NCBI GenBank assembly: GCA_900318145.1
Contig: ONJM01000006.1
Location: forward strand, 62,001 to 126,000
Direction of reading: 5' to 3'
Source: an uncultured Eubacteriales bacterium
GTDB taxonomy: Bacteria; Bacillota; Clostridia; Christensenellales; Aristaeellaceae
DNA: 64,000 nucleotides
Numbering within the stretch: position 1 is the first letter of the stretch; every line of letters starts with the position of its first letter. Shown here in pieces: positions 1 through 5,626 of the stretch. The notes under the pieces were generated by a model, which was not told the origin of the DNA, searched no databases, and worked only from the letters and a program-made list of their open reading frames with translations. A program made the translations under genes and the position numbers.

Positions 1-710
1 TACGGAATGGAACCATTACGGAAACAGATATCGCTTATCTCGCAAAATTCTATGCTTCTCCAAATCATGCTTCAACGCCCAAACGATTATCAGAGCTGGA
101 AGGAACGCATCCATCATCATACATTTCTCCTTGCACATCATTAGGTCGAAAAATATCACAGTTTTTCCTGATACCGTCAATTCCGAGGGAAGGAAAACCC
201 GATAGCGAAAAGCTTTATCCGATCATTTTCCTTGGCAGACGCATTTCAAATGGGTTGTTTGAATGGAAACTCAGACCAGAGTTGGTGGCGGCATTGGAAG
301 AGACAAGCCCACAAACTCTTGCAGCAGAAACAGTAAGAATGGAAGAAAACGAAGAAGAAGAAGCTGCGCAACTCTCAGTAGATGAGTTGTTGGATAGAGC
401 AAGAAAATGTCATTCCGGTCCAGCAGATACATATACATCAACAACAAAACAGCGTAGGAGAAATCCATTGATGCAGCTCGCTGCAAAAGCAAGAGCAAAT
501 GGTGTTTGTCAGCTTTGCGGGATAACGCTGGATTATAAAGACAAACAAGGAAGACCTTATTTAGAAGCTCATCATATTATACCGTTGGCGGAGAATGGCC
601 CTGATGAACTGAGCAATATGACAGCTCTATGTCCAAATTGCCATCGGAAGATGCACGTAGTTGCAGATCGGGATGATATTGCTAGACTTTTGGCCTTGGC
701 AGAGTTTTAA
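1..710 (+). CDS. HNH endonuclease, 5' end cut by window edge
   Basis: The frame is open from position 3 to the TAA at 708-710, so the gene begins outside the window; the TTG at 255 is only an internal codon. The last ~60 residues form a textbook HNH nuclease: a CxxC pair (CQLC), then EAHHIIPL with the catalytic His, then an Asn and LCPNCHRKMH. The two CxxC pairs should hold a structural zinc. The upstream part contains a segment ending in GLFEWKLRPELVAALEE, which resembles the recognition-side domain that precedes HNH in McrA-like restriction endonucleases (from memory, not searched). The DNA is AT-rich like the next gene, 80 bases downstream on the same strand, suggesting a shared defence module. 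A role in cutting modified or foreign DNA is inference. Confidence 0.85.
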   Translation, partial: RNGTITETDIAYLAKFYASPNHASTPKRLSELEGTHPSSYISPCTSLGRKISQFFLIPSIPREGKPDSEKLYPIIFLGRRISNGLFEWKLRPELVAALEETSPQTLAAETVRMEENEEEEAAQLSVDELLDRARKCHSGPADTYTSTTKQRRRNPLMQLAAKARANGVCQLCGITLDYKDKQGRPYLEAHHIIPLAENGPDELSNMTALCPNCHRKMHVVADRDDIARLLALAEF

Positions 711-790
711 GGTGGAAGATCACAGTATCGGTTGCTGAAATCGCGCATTTGTTGGGAGATCGAGTGGGGCGAATTCGTAAGAGGTGCAAA

Positions 791-3700
791 ATGGTAGATC
801 AATATAGAAATTATCCAGATCTCTCTTGGGCTCTGTTTGAAATATGTAATAGAAACCCTACAAGCAGTTTCGAAGAAATGTCACGATCTTTGTTCTACTA
901 CGAGTTCTTAAAAGAAACAAATGTGCCTCATTCTGATCATAATCATCCAGGCGTTGAAGTTGAACCAGTACTTGAACCATTGCGTGACGATCAACCAATA
1001 AGGCGAAGAGTTAGTTTCCAATCAAAGTATTTTAAGGACCGAATAAACTATACGCAAATAAAGCATTCCATTCAAAAAACAATTCAAAAGTATGCGGGGA
1101 AACTTGATCATCTGTATTTATTCTGCAATGAAACGATAACCAAAACAAGCAAACAATATAAGGAAATTGAACAGCTTTTAAGAGAAAATGGAATTACGAT
1201 ACAACCCGTTTCAAATAATGATATATTTCTTCTTGTTCGTAAATATAAGGATGTTGCGCAATACTTTTTTGTGGCTCGCGGAGTTTCACTTGGACACTTG
1301 ACGGCTAATGTTTCAACAATGGTGTCCATTGATTCATCCATCACAACTGCTTTTGATTCCGACTCTGTTGATAAAGGAAAAGAAGAGTTAACGAGGACAT
1401 TGATACTTGAAAAGATCACGGAATGCAGGAAAGCAATTGTCGAGATGCGTTTAAAACAAGCAAAATCCATGATAACGTATATTCTTGAATACGATCTTCA
1501 TGAAATCAAAGAAGCACAAGCACTTTATTACTATAAATATCTCATAGATTTGTTTGATGGACAAAAAGCGACATTCGATAAGCTTCCTACCAGTTATAAA
1601 CTTGAGGGGGAATGGATACAGGCCTTTTTTGATAATCCCTATGAAGTTCAGAAGCAAGAATTATCAAGGCATTATCCTGAGACTCAGTTGTTCGTCATTG
1701 AAAAACTATTTACAGAAAAAAAGTGGGATTATGTGCTTGAACTCTATAACACTTCACAAACTGACGAGTTTACCAAAGAAGTTTATATTCAAATTCAATT
1801 CCATGCCGGATTATCGTATTATAATTTACATGATTTAGTTCATGCGTGTCCCATTTTAGATTCTCTTATAGGAGTATACCAGGATGACAAATATAAACTG
1901 TTTTCAGTTTGCGCTCATATTGCTTGGATTAATCAGAAACATCGCGAATGCCAAAGAGAACAATATGATGAGCTTATTGACTTGCTAAAGGATTTGGATG
2001 AACTCTGTCATTGTGATCAATATAAAAGTAATGAGCTTATGATCGCCACCATCTCACTGGAGGCATACTATAATCTTGGCTTGTTTGATGATAAATTTAT
2101 TGAAGCTGCAATAAGCAAACAAAAAGAGTTTTCAGAAGCAACACAGAATCATTATTATGTAAGGTATTATTTAGCGCTTTGTCTTGAAGCAAAATGTATG
2201 TTCGATGAAGCCATCGATATATACAAATCACTTGACTGGAAAAATGAGGATCTCGTCGCTTCGCGTTATATGTTTTGCCTGTCGCAAAAGGAAGAATTTC
2301 AAAGAGCAAAAGAGATTTATCTGGAAATACCTGATGAATCAAAATCGGAGAAAGTTGTTGGAGTTTATCTCCATGTACTGGAGAAAAGCCATGATAATGA
2401 TTACATCTCGTGCCTAGAGAAAACTATTCAGGAGAATTGTGACTCAATTGAAGCGCTTTTCGCAGCATCGTTCTATATCAACGACAAACAAGCCTTCAAA
2501 CGATATGTACTGCCAGTATTAGGTCGTAAGATGGTTAACCTGTCATGGGATAATATCCCTTTTTATATCAAAGCTGGTTTGCTGCTAAAATTCTCCCAGT
2601 TTGGCCTGTTTAAACAGATGGAACAAGTATTGGTCGAAATTCAGGATCTCCATATGCTCGATCAACATATTGTTAATGAAATCTATAAATCTTTTGCTTC
2701 ATTTTCGAATCGGCAATTTAACAAGCATGAAAAGACTTTTTCAGCTGATAAACCATTGGATCAAATTGATTTAATGTCTGCTCGCTTTATAACAGAAGGC
2801 TTGATGCCCAAACAATTCCTTACGGTAAGATACCTCTGTGCAGGAGCTGCACAAAAACCATATAGCATGCTTAAGTTTGCAAGAGATATATATGATCTGG
2901 AACCTCAGCTATGGGTTGCCAGAAGTATAGTGGCTATTCTGGCTGAGCAAGGAGAAAAACGCACCGAAGCATATTCTCCGTATATCAATGCACTGAAAGA
3001 TTCGCATGTCCCGGATCATTGCATAGTGGTATCCTATGCTCTTCGGCGACAAGGTCAAGACGAAATGGCTGACTATTATATCTATAAAGCCCTATACTAC
3101 CTTAATGATAAAGAAGACTATACCATACTCAGGAATTGTTTCTCCTTTGCAATTTCAGATATTACAAGAGGTGCTCCGGAAGAGAAAACAGACAGTATTC
3201 GAGAAAAAACAATTGTTGTATTACAGAATAACAGAACAAAAGAGAATTCCACTCTTTGCATAGATTCAGAAAGTGAACTGAATGATGCGAACAATCATAG
3301 TTTTGGGGCTATTCACGTTAATTCTGGACAGTGGGAACATACTAAGTTGTTAGGAAAAAAATTGCAGCATAAAGTGACCCTTCACCAAGATGAATATACT
3401 GTTCTATCAATAGAGAGCAGAAAAGAATTTGTCTGTCGCTATATTTTCAAAAAGCTGCAAGATAACCCTGATAAATTCAAAGGTGTTGCATGGGTAGTAA
3501 GTGCAAAAGATGGAGAAGAGTTTATTGCGCAGCTTAAAGCATTAACAAACAGAAAAGATCAGATTAAATCTTTAGTCGAATCCTATGACTTTAGAGATAA
3601 TTCTTTGGGTTTACCAATAGATGCTTTCATCTTTGGTGATTATTCTCGGTACATAGATGCGTTACGTATGTTGCTGTTTGTAAAGGATCTTATTTATCAT

Positions 3701-4474
3701 GCCGGGCAACCTATTGTTGCAGATCTTGAGGCAGAGAAATTTGTTCCTTCGATTTCAACCTTGGTTTTAGCATCTCAAATGGGGTGGCTTGATTATTTGA
3801 CACCACTACAAAAGGATTTCTTTATACCTGAAAGCTATAGCGTCTTTTTCAGAGAACGATACCTACATGCTTCTATATCTCCAAGTGTCTCTCCAGGAAC
3901 AATGTATTTTCAGGATGATCAGGTCTTCTTGGTTGAGCAGGATAAAAAGCTTCCTGAAATCTGGGAAAATATCATAGAGTTTTGTGAAAAGTGTTCATAC
4001 TGTTCCGTATCCACAGATGAAAGAATCAATCTTGTTTTCGGAAAAGACATTTCTGGTGAAAAACTTATGACAGGATTTAAACTGGATGTAGCACAATTGG
4101 ACGCGATCATTTTGGCTCAGAAAAAGAACTCGATTTATATTTGTGACGATTTGTTTTTCAGGAAACTTGCATCAACAATACAAGTTAAAAATATAAACTT
4201 TGTTTCAATTATGCTTCATTACCAAGATTCTTACTTGTATCCAACACTTAATGCTTTGGCAAAAACCAATTATTTCCTTGTCCCTTTCTTGACAAGCAGC
4301 GACGAAGAGGCAACTCAAAGATTTAAAGATAACATGAATGGACAAAGGAAAGCCAAGCACTATGGGCAGTACTTTATGAATCTATCAAATTTAGTACGCT
4401 CTTTATTCTCATATAATGATTCTGATGAAGAACATACGGACGAAATTGATGATAATTTGCATCTGGAAGAATAA
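791..4474 (+). CDS. Giant TPR protein with PD-(D/E)xK-like N-terminus and PIN-like C-terminus
   Basis: About 1227 residues from the ATG at 791, chosen because AAGAGGTG lies just upstream; a TTG at 749 is in frame but has no ribosome site. Residues ~27-160 look like an Mrr/Cap4-type nuclease fold: G54-V-E56-V-E58 followed by F76-Q-S-K79, then a YxQI helix and a YLFCNE strand. Residues ~195-785 are helical repeats of TPR character. Residues ~843-895 resemble a GreA/B C-terminal domain (VTLHQDEYTVLSIESRKEFV). Residues ~975-1155 look like a PIN ribonuclease, with candidate acidic residues D978, E1014, D1104 and D1119/D1120 (ICDDLFFRKLA). TPR-GreAB-C-PIN modules are, as I recall, known from comparative work on bacterial conflict systems; the N-terminal nuclease-like domain would be an addition. 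AT-rich composition and an HNH neighbour support a defence island. Function untested. Confidence 0.75.
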   Translation: MVDQYRNYPDLSWALFEICNRNPTSSFEEMSRSLFYYEFLKETNVPHSDHNHPGVEVEPVLEPLRDDQPIRRRVSFQSKYFKDRINYTQIKHSIQKTIQKYAGKLDHLYLFCNETITKTSKQYKEIEQLLRENGITIQPVSNNDIFLLVRKYKDVAQYFFVARGVSLGHLTANVSTMVSIDSSITTAFDSDSVDKGKEELTRTLILEKITECRKAIVEMRLKQAKSMITYILEYDLHEIKEAQALYYYKYLIDLFDGQKATFDKLPTSYKLEGEWIQAFFDNPYEVQKQELSRHYPETQLFVIEKLFTEKKWDYVLELYNTSQTDEFTKEVYIQIQFHAGLSYYNLHDLVHACPILDSLIGVYQDDKYKLFSVCAHIAWINQKHRECQREQYDELIDLLKDLDELCHCDQYKSNELMIATISLEAYYNLGLFDDKFIEAAISKQKEFSEATQNHYYVRYYLALCLEAKCMFDEAIDIYKSLDWKNEDLVASRYMFCLSQKEEFQRAKEIYLEIPDESKSEKVVGVYLHVLEKSHDNDYISCLEKTIQENCDSIEALFAASFYINDKQAFKRYVLPVLGRKMVNLSWDNIPFYIKAGLLLKFSQFGLFKQMEQVLVEIQDLHMLDQHIVNEIYKSFASFSNRQFNKHEKTFSADKPLDQIDLMSARFITEGLMPKQFLTVRYLCAGAAQKPYSMLKFARDIYDLEPQLWVARSIVAILAEQGEKRTEAYSPYINALKDSHVPDHCIVVSYALRRQGQDEMADYYIYKALYYLNDKEDYTILRNCFSFAISDITRGAPEEKTDSIREKTIVVLQNNRTKENSTLCIDSESELNDANNHSFGAIHVNSGQWEHTKLLGKKLQHKVTLHQDEYTVLSIESRKEFVCRYIFKKLQDNPDKFKGVAWVVSAKDGEEFIAQLKALTNRKDQIKSLVESYDFRDNSLGLPIDAFIFGDYSRYIDALRMLLFVKDLIYHAGQPIVADLEAEKFVPSISTLVLASQMGWLDYLTPLQKDFFIPESYSVFFRERYLHASISPSVSPGTMYFQDDQVFLVEQDKKLPEIWENIIEFCEKCSYCSVSTDERINLVFGKDISGEKLMTGFKLDVAQLDAIILAQKKNSIYICDDLFFRKLASTIQVKNINFVSIMLHYQDSYLYPTLNALAKTNYFLVPFLTSSDEEATQRFKDNMNGQRKAKHYGQYFMNLSNLVRSLFSYNDSDEEHTDEIDDNLHLEE

Positions 4475-4663
4475 TAACCTCCCAATTCTTAGCAAACGAT
4501 CGACGATCGCTTTTCTTGAACATCGGTATTGGCACGCTGGGATGTTGAAGGATTTTTAATCATTCCGCCTTGATTAGAACCGCTTAGAAATCTGTTCTAA
4601 TTTTCGGTTAGAATTTTCTGCAAAATATTAGAAATTGGCTAATCGTAGAAAAATGAAATTAGA
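4475..4663. other. AT-rich intergenic stretch rich in TTCTAA/TTAGAA motifs
   Basis: No credible coding frame. The stretch carries several copies of TTCTAAT or its complement ATTAGAA, including TTCTAATTTTCGGTTAGAA, which can pair with itself, at about 4598-4616. The same motif recurs at 4852, 4870, 4944 and in 5145-5191, so it links this spacer to the tRNA-like region to its right. It sits at the change from AT-rich accessory DNA to the GC-rich chromosome, next to the 3' side of tRNA-Arg. Confidence 0.5.
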
Positions 4664-4717
4664 ATGGGAAAAAGAAAAATCCGCCAGGTTTTCGACGTTT
4701 TGTTGCTCCTGGCGGAT
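4664..4717 (-). terminator. Intrinsic terminator of tRNA-Arg
   Basis: On the minus strand ATCCGCCAGG (complement of 4708-4717) pairs perfectly with CCTGGCGGAT (complement of 4679-4688) and is followed by a T-rich run, TTTTTCTTTTT (complement of 4668-4678), continuing to about 4664. It begins a few bases past the 3' end of the tRNA, so it should end any transcript coming through the tRNA-like array. Confidence 0.9.
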
Positions 4718-4723
4718 CTTCCG

Positions 4724-4797
4724 CACACCCGGCGGGATTCGAACCCACGGCCTGCCGCTTAGGAGGCGGCCGCTCTATCCTACTGAGCTACGGGTGC
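4724..4797 (-). tRNA. tRNA-Arg (anticodon CCT)
   Basis: On the minus strand: acceptor GCACCCG pairs with CGGGTGT (first pair G-U), D-arm GCTC/GAGC, anticodon stem GCCGC/GCGGC with loop CTCCTAA, and T-arm GTGGG-TTCGAAT-CCCGC; the discriminator base is G. It reads AGG codons. No CCA is encoded. Its immediate upstream region has a TATAAA-like -10 at 4807-4812 but no good -35, whereas a perfect promoter sits 560 bases further upstream before a broken copy. The 5' half is duplicated exactly at 5320-5360. Confidence 0.95.
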
Positions 4798-4965
4798 ATG
4801 CCTTGATTTATAACGCTTCCGGCATTTTGAAGCTTCACGAAATTGGCGGGTTTATTAGAAAAACCGGGTCAATTTCTAACGAAAATCGGGGGTTTTTGGT
4901 GCTTGCGCACCCGACTGGTTCCGAACTCTGCTCCGCGCGCTTCTGTTAGAATTTTCAGCGCCTTC

Positions 4966-5067
4966 GGCTGGGATCGAACTCCGCACCCTTTTCGGATTAT
5001 AGCTCATTTGCGAGCGTTCGTCTATTTCTTAGGAGGCGGACCCTCTATCCTGCTGAGGTACGGGACC
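4966..5067 (-). pseudogene. Degenerate tRNA-Arg-like copy (middle copy)
   Basis: The minus strand begins GGTCCCG-TA, then a D-arm-like CCTC-AGCAGGATA-GAGG, then CCGCCTCCTAAG as in the anticodon loop of the true tRNA. The 3' half is interrupted by about 50 foreign bases, and a T-arm-like GTTCGATCC is at 4970-4978. Compared with the true tRNA the D-stem has changed on both sides (GCTC/GAGC to CCTC/GAGG), keeping the pairing. The acceptor 3' strand is missing, so it cannot make a normal tRNA. Confidence 0.6.
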
Positions 5068-5155
5068 ATGCTCTCGAAAGTCCTTATTTTTCAAGGCTTC
5101 CGAGGTTTCGGTGACTGTTCACCGTAGAGGTTAGGGTGCCTTTTTCTAATCAGGA

Positions 5156-5225
5156 AAGGTCGATTTCTAATCAGCTTTTCTAACTTTGGCGGTAGGACAT
5201 TTTCCCACATGCTGATTTCGACCTT
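5156..5225 (-). other. Long interrupted stem-loop between tRNA-like copies
   Basis: AAGGTCGA at 5156-5163 pairs with TCGACCTT at 5218-5225, and AATCAGC at 5169-5175 pairs with GCTGATT at 5211-5217, leaving a 5-base bulge (5164-5168) and a 35-base loop. Fifteen Watson-Crick pairs without mismatch are unlikely by chance at this spacing, so this is good evidence for RNA (or single-strand DNA) structure. Confidence 0.6.
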
Positions 5226-5309
5226 GCTGAGTAAGGGTGTCGGAGTAACTGGGAAACCGGGTCACTTCCGAACGCTGTTCCCGTTTTCAGTTTCCGGAAA
5301 GACGGTAGT

Positions 5310-5360
5310 CGGCCTACTTCTTAGGAGGCGGCCGCTCTATCCTACTGAGCTACGGGTGCA
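5310..5360 (-). pseudogene. tRNA-Arg 5' half (outer copy), direct repeat of 4748-4798
   Basis: Positions 5320-5360 are identical over 41 bases to 4758-4798, i.e. the acceptor 5' strand, D-arm and anticodon loop of tRNA-Arg(CCT). Outward, CGGCCT (5310-5315) also matches, but the four bases that would form the 3' side of the anticodon stem are ACTT instead of GCCG (plus-strand letters). No T-arm or acceptor 3' strand follows at tRNA distance. It sits 5-6 bases after the predicted start site of a perfect promoter. It behaves like one end of an insertion that split the tRNA gene. Confidence 0.8.
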
Positions 5361-5370
5361 AAGCAGTGGA

Positions 5371-5399
5371 ATTATAAGCGATTTGGGCTTTTTTGTCAA
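5371..5399 (-). promoter_or_regulatory. Perfect consensus sigma-A promoter firing into the tRNA-like array
   Basis: On the minus strand TTGACA (complement of 5394-5399), a 17-base spacer, and TATAAT (complement of 5371-5376): all twelve consensus bases at the ideal spacing. Start of transcription is expected near 5364, about five bases before the tRNA 5' half at 5359. Such a promoter with so short a leader is typical of a stable-RNA gene. Confidence 0.85.
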
Positions 5400-5401
5400 A
5401 C

Positions 5402-5450
5402 CACGGAGAATATTATGGACCTTCACGGAGAATATTATGGACCTTCACGG
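5402..5450 (+). repeat. 22-bp tandem duplication
   Basis: A 22-base unit beginning CACGGAGAATATTATGGACC occupies 5402-5423 and is repeated exactly at 5424-5445, followed by a third partial CACGG. Each unit carries GGAG and an ATG that start tiny frames of 14-23 codons; the 22-base period puts the two out of frame. It looks like a recent slippage or repair duplication at the edge of the tRNA-like region. Confidence 0.8.
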
Positions 5451-5467
5451 CGGATGGTATCTGCTGA

Positions 5468-5626
5468 AAAGTATTTATTGACTTAGCCGCTCAGGACGTG
5501 GGAAAATATATTGAGGGCAGGCTGATCCGGCTTGCGGAGCGGTTTCAGCATCATATTTCTGCCGCGGAAGGCGACGGGAAGGAGTTCCCGGAGGAATGCG
5601 GCACCGGCTGCCCCGATTACGATTAA
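5468..5626 (+). pseudogene. Possible 3' gene remnant, about 50 codons
   Basis: An open frame without a convincing start runs to a TAA at 5624-5626, with an acidic C-terminus and a CGTGCP motif. Its codon use matches the GC-rich genes to the right, and it ends 17 bases before the aldo/keto reductase, as a preceding operon gene would. Upstream it is cut off where the duplicated AT-rich DNA starts. I do not recognise the family. It could be the tail of a gene lost when the tRNA-like region expanded, or simply non-coding. Confidence 0.3.

Follow-up and report, generated by a model that had tools for sequence, protein, structure and literature searches.

The 562 bp that separate an orphaned 5′ half of a tRNA-Arg(CCT) gene from the intact gene in the window (the whole 64,000-nucleotide stretch of DNA that we analysed) are very probably two stacked left attachment junctions, left by successive tRNA-carrying islands that integrated at the anticodon-loop sequence CTCCTAA. 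The sequence evidence for this reading comprises the anatomy of the locus, a pair of empty and occupied sites, the identity of the modules between the tRNA pieces, matching displaced halves in relatives, and the genes of the elements. To this our model adds, by inference, a tyrosine integrase that would move the window's own elements, read-through transcription, and the way in which the first island was lost. The original prediction, which placed a tiny element of ~562 bp within the tRNA gene, was right about integration in a tRNA gene and wrong about the size and position of the element: the resident one lies beyond the intact tRNA and measures at least 66.7 kb.

Anatomy of the tRNA-Arg(CCT) locus

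Much of the predicted layout is present (Table 1): a perfect promoter, an exact copy of the 5′ half of tRNA-Arg(CCT) that lacks a 3′ half, and an intact tRNA-Arg(CCT) 562 bp further on, with the promoter and the old 5′ half making up the outer side. The gap between promoter and copy, given earlier as 5-6 bases, is 10 bases, the first base of the oldest orphan half lying 11 bases past the promoter. Positions 5320-5360 are an exact 41-base copy of 4758-4798, after which other sequence follows. A third 5′ half, overlooked in the earlier work, occupies positions 5028-5068 (75% over a 51-nt reference) and reads GGTCCCGTACCTCAGCAGGATAGAGGGTCCGCCTCCTAAG. Judged by its sequence, this middle half is a piece of another tRNA-Arg(CCT), not a decayed copy, and it is best read as having come in with the first element. 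Successive 5′ halves are spaced 270 and 292 bp apart, and both orphans lose their likeness to tRNA directly past the anticodon loop. On the far side of the intact gene, the element-end segment recurs in two relatives: in G021 (91% over 223 bp) it stands behind a displaced 3′ half, and in G032 158 bp of it are found at 97%. The window also contains a 22-nt exact tandem duplication (CACGGAGAATATTATGGACCTT) at 5402-5445, directly upstream of the promoter.

Table 1. Positions of the tRNA-Arg(CCT) locus and of the adjoining part of the island, numbered within the window.
Feature	Position	Strand	Remarks
Promoter TTGACA-17-TATAAT	5371..5399	-	12/12 consensus match
Orphan 5′ half no. 1 (taken as the oldest), tRNA-Arg(CCT), acceptor GCACCCG	5320..5359	-	Exact copy; no 3′ half behind it
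CTCCTAA in the anticodon loop, putative core of the first crossover	5321..5327	-	Common to orphan 5′ and orphan 3′ halves
Spacer sp1, read as left end of the first element	5069..5319	-	251 bp; TTAGAA/TTCTAA words
Orphan 5′ half no. 2, different tRNA-Arg(CCT), GGTCCCGTACC...TCCGC	5028..5067	-	Whole tRNA directly behind sp1 in G021 and G003
Spacer sp2, read as left end of the second (resident) element	4799..5027	-	229 bp; 97.8% copy in G036
Intact tRNA-Arg(CCT)	4723..4797	-	ARAGORN; Rfam RF00005, 67.5 bits
Probable intrinsic terminator of the intact tRNA	4676..4720	-	13-bp inverted repeat 4676-4688/4708-4720, plus scan
Element-end segment, TTAGAA/TTCTAA words	4492..4722	-	Homology to other elements stops near 4492-4500
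Portion of low-G+C conjugative-type island, intact tRNA leftward to contig end	1..4722	.	66.7 kb in all
1241-aa protein with PIN-TPR-GreABC domain, element cargo	749..4474	+	PF20698, E 3.8e-07
HNH endonuclease, type IV restriction enzyme-like, element cargo	255..710	+	PF01844; PADLOC mREase_IV

In line with the original description, the ORFs of the insert are all short (at most 94 aa inside it, up to 104 aa when overlapping), and it is rich in hairpins: folding of the 521-nt insert strand gives z = -3.25, with 0 of 100 shuffles as good. This hairpin content, together with the occurrence of arrays of two or three halves in several genomes, would suit an array that is kept for a function of its own, either as decoy or landing-site 5′ halves or as regulatory spacer RNA. 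We consider such a role unlikely: the spacers vary between elements, the Rfam search returned no gathering-score match other than tRNA, and the TTAGAA words of the spacers are common to the far element ends as well, for which recombinase binding sites are at least an equally good explanation.

Separable spacers as probable element ends and an empty site in relatives

If the insert consists of two element ends, each spacer should be tied to the tRNA behind it and not to the 5′ half in front of it. We compared the modules in 23 loci plus the window. Full-length copies of sp1 at 94-96% occur in four same-genus genomes, each leading into the start of the same tRNA. Of 11 sp1 matches in this set, nine have downstream sequence, and all nine start a tRNA-Arg 5′ half (broken after 15 nt in G033). 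For the copies of at least 94% that have downstream sequence (window, G044, G033, G003 and G021), the tRNA begun is the same in 5/5, and upstream of these five copies stand four different 5′ halves. This combination of a constant downstream side and a varied upstream side is as an integrating element predicts. Two further partial copies at 97% (G016 and G018) stop at contig ends, and more diverged copies (80-89%) precede other versions of tRNA-Arg(CCT). The spacer sp2 precedes the GCACCCG tRNA both in the window and in G036, downstream of different 5′ halves, and a partial copy in G009 sits behind yet another 5′ half.

The original prediction had proposed, as a check, a search for a relative with the identical promoter straight before an intact tRNA, and G041 is such a relative. 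It differs from G033 at 2 of 118 positions over a stretch that starts ahead of the promoter and closes with the 5′ half, with divergence beyond: the tRNA runs on intact in G041, and G033 has sp1 past the anticodon loop, which makes the two an empty/occupied pair (the gene end upstream of their promoter looks, by eye, like trpS). A second pair rests on flanking genes: in G031 and G007 an intact tRNA lies between neighbour genes that match the flanks of G028, where an orphan 5′ half is found on one contig and an orphan 3′ half, several genes away, on another. This pair is weaker because G028 has a half of another type than G031/G007 and because that half is preceded by a further 20-nt tRNA piece. 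No allelic empty site was found for the window's own flank; G020 shares with that flank solely DNA past the first flanking gene, and in G012, which has the right-side helicase in common with the window (84%), the contig stops at the tRNA 5′ half. The arrangement is not unique to the window: orphan 5′ halves occur in at least 21 of 45 same-genus genomes (G012 being counted on one base at the contig end) and in many other Clostridia; 30 of the 45 have some match to the 5′-half pattern. Many of these genomes are incomplete, and breaks between contigs are frequent at the tRNA locus.

Displaced 3′ halves

The other halves of the disrupted genes are found in relatives. Orphan 3′ halves there start at the core CTCCTAA, and island ends precede them. 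In 7 of the 9 genomes that show both kinds of orphan, the outermost 5′ half pairs 12/12 with an orphan 3′ half (G021, G032, G013, G043, G045, G048 and G028), as scored on fetched pieces of the nine genomes by 7/7 acceptor-stem plus 5/5 anticodon-stem positions with wobble allowed. The 5′ half of the resident tRNA pairs less well in four of these seven (G021, G032, G013 and G048), and there the match is therefore specific; G043 and G045 have a resident half that pairs as well as the outermost one, and in G028 one 5′ half is available. Two of the seven, G045 and G048, are isolates of other genera. Paired halves on the same contig (G021, G032, G013, G045 and G048) lie at least about 20 kb apart, and those of G013 are ~93 kb apart on one contig.

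The orphan pieces share the orientation of the intact tRNA, two 5′ halves lying upstream of it in the window and 3′ orphans downstream of it in G021, G032 and G013. At the left junction in the window no tRNA is rebuilt, as the 5′ halves run into spacers, and none is rebuilt at the right junction, seen in relatives alone, where island ends precede the 3′ halves. The same module of 3′ half plus terminator as in the window stands kilobases from the tRNA in G021, and by comparison the 3′ half and terminator of the window's intact tRNA look element-borne, not native as the original prediction had them.

Some observations count against this reading. The orphan 3′ halves of G019 and G029 fit none of the 5′ halves in those genomes, and G021 has one additional 3′ half without a 5′ partner; island gains and losses, and recombination between repeats, must therefore also have occurred. 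With two patterns we found none of the two orphan 3′ halves expected in the window's own genome, a lack that may, but need not, be due to the island running to the contig end.

A tiny non-coding mobile element of ~562 bp, carrying a tRNA 5′ half and integrated in the gene, would explain the exact 41-nt repeat at both ends of the 562 bp and the presence of short ORFs alone. We regard it as very improbable: the 562 bp are two modules with a different 5′ half in between, sp1 and sp2 occur apart in other genomes, the 3′ half and terminator travel with the element, and the orphan halves that can be paired on one contig are separated by tens of kilobases, about 20 or more. Equally improbable is an origin without integration, in which ordinary recombination copied the tRNA 5′ region by tandem duplication or slippage. 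Such events would give similarly spaced direct repeats and may also have trimmed arrays, but they are at odds with three 5′ halves that are not copies of one gene (no. 2 comes from another isodecoder, with its complete gene in relatives), with spacers that differ, with homology that ends sharply past the anticodon loop, and with matching 3′ halves that lie kilobases away in relatives.

The probable crossover core and repeated words at element ends

Comparison of orphan 5′ and 3′ halves shows that the bases flanking CTCCTAA vary by element: it is followed by T in several orphans but by G in the intact tRNAs of the genus, and preceded by T, G or A at island ends but by C in the tRNA. Because the bases on both sides vary, the overlap is at most the 7-nt loop. 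Counted on both strands, sp1, sp2, the downstream segment and the right ends of 12 islands together contain the word TTAGAA 52 times, as against 0 times in 58 kb of the window, a contrast that is inflated because several of the ends are closely related and the background is richer in G+C. On the window's own 126-kb contig, the left half of which is not G+C-rich, 12 of 24 TTAGAA hits fall within 1 kb at the locus. By eye, two island ends have other repeated words (GTTGGA in G030 and GTTAGC in G013; L065 and L070). We infer that all three words may be integrase arm sites.

Distribution beyond the genus

A scan of GTDB contigs with the orphan-5′-half pattern gave at least 119 stretches with at least 129 matches, made up of 19 intact tRNAs (dropped) and 110 orphans. 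The counts below rest on all 119 stretches, except for the promoter comparison, for which 80 of them were used. Among the matches listed, a complete tRNA-Arg(CCT) stands behind 48 of the 51 orphans that have at least 800 nt downstream (the 59 of 110 with less were left out of this count), the exceptions being L194, L208 (G029) and L216 (G033). The figure is 45 of 46 for orphans outside recognised members of the window's genus, for which eight recognised loci were left out and more genus members may remain. Over 71 cases with a complete tRNA, again among the matches listed, spacer length is 42-614 nt with a median of 77. Named hosts include Hungatella hathewayi, Angelakisella massiliensis, Caproicibacter fermentans and Pseudoflavonifractor phocaeensis, the last of which (G048) has three orphan 5′ halves ahead of the intact tRNA. 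Some pattern matches come from other phyla, and many of these are intact tRNAs.

Plasmid and phage records match positions 4600-5500 at the tRNA stretches alone (best 20 of 117 and best 20 of 228). The exact left junction of sp1 gave 0 hits in viral contigs, and a looser sp1-junction pattern matched three of them. We also considered an assembly artefact, which is unlikely: like arrays are present in G021, an assembly of two contigs, and on a 3.0-Mb contig of Angelakisella massiliensis. In the latter species (L201, 3900-4600), the remains of four older tRNA-Arg(CCT)-like copies, some of which retain a short 3′ piece, can be made out by eye before one more orphan 5′ half and the intact tRNA.

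The resident island and the search for an integrase

The island that adjoins the intact tRNA is at least 66.7 kb long and is cut by the contig end. In 2-kb bins, G+C is 37-52% to the left of the locus, 56-64% to the right, and 47% in the bin of the locus itself. Our gene list, which covers part of the island's ORFs, includes conjugation-type genes left of the tRNA (coupling protein PF02534/TraG, TrbL_2 of the TrbL/VirB6 kind, and a CD1107-like protein), and the island thus has the type IV secretion genes and coupling protein expected of an integrative and conjugative element; a 796-aa ORF is VirB4-like by eye alone. It also encodes NlpC/P60, topoisomerase, ParA, ParB, DnaB-like, sortase and SpaA-type proteins. 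Just left of the window lies a BREX operon, BrxF-BrxC-PglX-BrxH-PglZ-BrxA (L064 7296-19246, equal to 49.3-61.2 kb of the window's own contig, C19), a gene order that resembles that of BREX type 3. The HNH and PIN-TPR genes follow and adjoin the tRNA; the 1241-aa PIN-TPR-GreABC protein had no PADLOC match. The intact tRNA-Arg(CCT) was probably brought in by the resident element.

The case for a tyrosine integrase comes from other genomes, and its absence from the surveyed part of the window's island counts against our reading. None was found in the 66.7 kb of the contig-end-cut island with a home-made profile and with PF00589 on the contig, and PF00589 in 13 of the 45 same-genus genomes gave none within 4 kb of the listed tRNA-Arg(CCT) pieces. 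In G021, a 113-aa N-terminal integrase fragment lies at the expected place beside the tRNA; with this fragment as a query in the 45 genomes, and the home-made profile on the fetched loci, no further tRNA-adjacent integrase was found in the genus. A 472-aa homologue of the integrases of other Clostridia is present in G013, ~22 kb away.

Beyond the genus, and among the matches listed, a convergent tyrosine integrase or part of one lies within 1.5 kb of the resident tRNA at 17 of the 47 loci that have at least 700 nt beyond the complete tRNA (17 of 45 without eight genus loci), and in all 17 cases it points towards the tRNA. Of the 25 integrase-like ORFs in the GTDB loci (at least 119), 20 lie within 1.5 kb of the resident tRNA. 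All 8 proteins compared with Pfam were confirmed as PF00589. Five of them are encoded next to a resident tRNA, a sixth lies before the far end in G048 (a 478-aa integrase that precedes the orphan 3′ half, 34.7 kb away), and the other two come from the window's genus (G013 and G027), where no tRNA-Arg(CCT) was seen beside them. As a separate observation, contig C47 of G043 has six tyrosine recombinase genes in a row (L062, 3721-10188), ~4 kb from an intact tRNA-Arg(CCT) and with a DUF4317 gene in between.

Transcription of the intact tRNA

Among the matches listed, a promoter with at most one mismatch precedes 18 of 48 orphan 5′ halves, 1 of 47 resident tRNAs and 0 of 48 shuffles. The set-up favours this contrast, since 80 nt were scanned on the outer side but each inner stretch stops at the orphan and in many cases falls short of that length. 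With at most three mismatches the corresponding numbers, among the same matches, are 26, 4 and 9. The 48 orphans compared are those, among 74 in 80 listed loci, with a complete tRNA behind them. In the window, the best sites have 0 mismatches at the outer position, 5 before the middle half and 4 before the intact tRNA. This pattern fits a promoterless element tRNA that uses a host promoter, and transcription of the new tRNA probably starts at the old promoter. A second promoter-like site (10/12, at 5024-4996 in sp2) could serve the intact tRNA, and we give it little weight because shuffles of the locus region yield 0.7 +/- 0.9 sites of at least 9/12.

The original prediction also named a sole strong terminator, behind the intact tRNA. 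A scan of 4600-5460 did find a single site there, at the 13-bp inverted repeat, but the scan is weak evidence alone (the shuffle mean, 1.9, is higher). Since this sole site stands behind the tRNA, nothing recognised by the scan, which is crude and does no better than on shuffles, blocks transcription from promoter to tRNA.

The window's own genome has a tRNA-Arg(TCT). A tRNA of this kind could read AGG codons by wobble. In G033, where sp1 is followed by the broken tRNA, two patterns found no intact tRNA-Arg(CCT), which counts against our main reading. Given the presence of tRNA-Arg(TCT) and the damaged gene of G033, cells may manage without tRNA-Arg(CCT), and the element tRNA may be dispensable to the host here.

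A model and its relation to known systems

We propose that an element with a tyrosine integrase entered a tRNA-Arg(CCT) gene by recombination at its 7-bp anticodon loop, CTCCTAA. The left junction would keep the promoter and 5′ half and the right junction the 3′ half, the tRNA being rebuilt at neither; instead, the element would supply a complete tRNA-Arg(CCT) with its terminator, ~230-250 bp inside its left end. Because the element carries a complete tRNA, the old 5′ half would be orphaned with its promoter and the old 3′ half moved to the far end. The element tRNA would then have been hit by a second element, the resident conjugative-type island of at least 66.7 kb with its BREX operon, producing a second scar of 5′ half plus spacer. 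The outer promoter most likely drives a transcript across both dead 5′ halves and spacers, from which normal tRNA processing would cut out the intact tRNA. More tentatively, and with somewhat less than even confidence, we suggest that integration of clostridial conjugative islands works as a switch through promoter capture, a promoterless island tRNA-Arg(CCT) becoming active only once it has landed at the resident anticodon loop. On this reading every newly arrived tRNA would offer the next invader its target, so that each arrival renews the landing pad and leaves one more 5′ half and spacer, and the ladder would be an ordered record of invasions.

The closest known system, judging from the available part of its description, is the tRNA-dependent lysogeny of actinobacteriophages (PMC10865867). 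Shared with tRNA-dependent integration are a short common core in a tRNA gene (here the 7 nt CTCCTAA), junctions of which neither restores the tRNA, and a complete tRNA of the same isotype on the element (in relatives, sp1 and sp2 each precede their own tRNA). Unlike the phages of that account, as far as it was available, the elements here are conjugative-type islands, mostly of Clostridia; their replacement tRNA adjoins attL in the same orientation, behind the old promoter, and it is re-used as a target, leaving stacked scars.

The Islander set (PMC4383910), in the part available, marks islands by a tRNA gene plus a displaced fragment, reports an anticodon-centred crossover in 2083 of 3919 islands, and includes 125 tandem arrays of two or more and 4 of three or more; its search demands an integrase inside the island. 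Under the standard scheme, the gene is restored by a tDNA fragment within attP and a single fragment is displaced, whereas in our case both halves become orphans and the element brings a complete gene. At tRNA-Lys in Methylophilaceae (PMC10872708, likewise from a partial view of the source), recurring tRNA fragments mark a variable region of additive genomic islands; those are 20-bp 3′ fragments, whereas ours are 5′ halves behind a promoter. No title found in the literature on tRNA-dependent lysogeny names a conjugative element, and among papers on tRNA-carrying islands or integrative and conjugative elements at tRNA-Arg or in Clostridia, judged by titles and the starts of abstracts and with few subscription papers, nothing matched.

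Thus the principle of a replacement tRNA is known, as in actinophages, and what appears to be new is its use by conjugative-type islands, the apparent promoter capture, and the stacking. Our results suggest that large conjugative and defence islands of gut and rumen Clostridia commonly integrate by replacing the host tRNA rather than repairing it, and that the strategy is then not confined to actinophages. From such a ladder one could read the order in which islands invaded a given site in the past. Island finders that rely on a single displaced fragment together with an integrase may place these islands wrongly or overlook them.

Other tRNA pieces in the same genome

Lone tRNA 3′ pieces of 26 or 23 nt, without a tRNA, are found elsewhere in the window's own genome (C45 at 17628 and 28356, and C20 at 5764; L007, L006 and L009), one of them near an integrase. 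On C30 (8273-9813), a tRNA-Arg(ACG) is adjoined by an integrase and is possibly another attachment hot spot.
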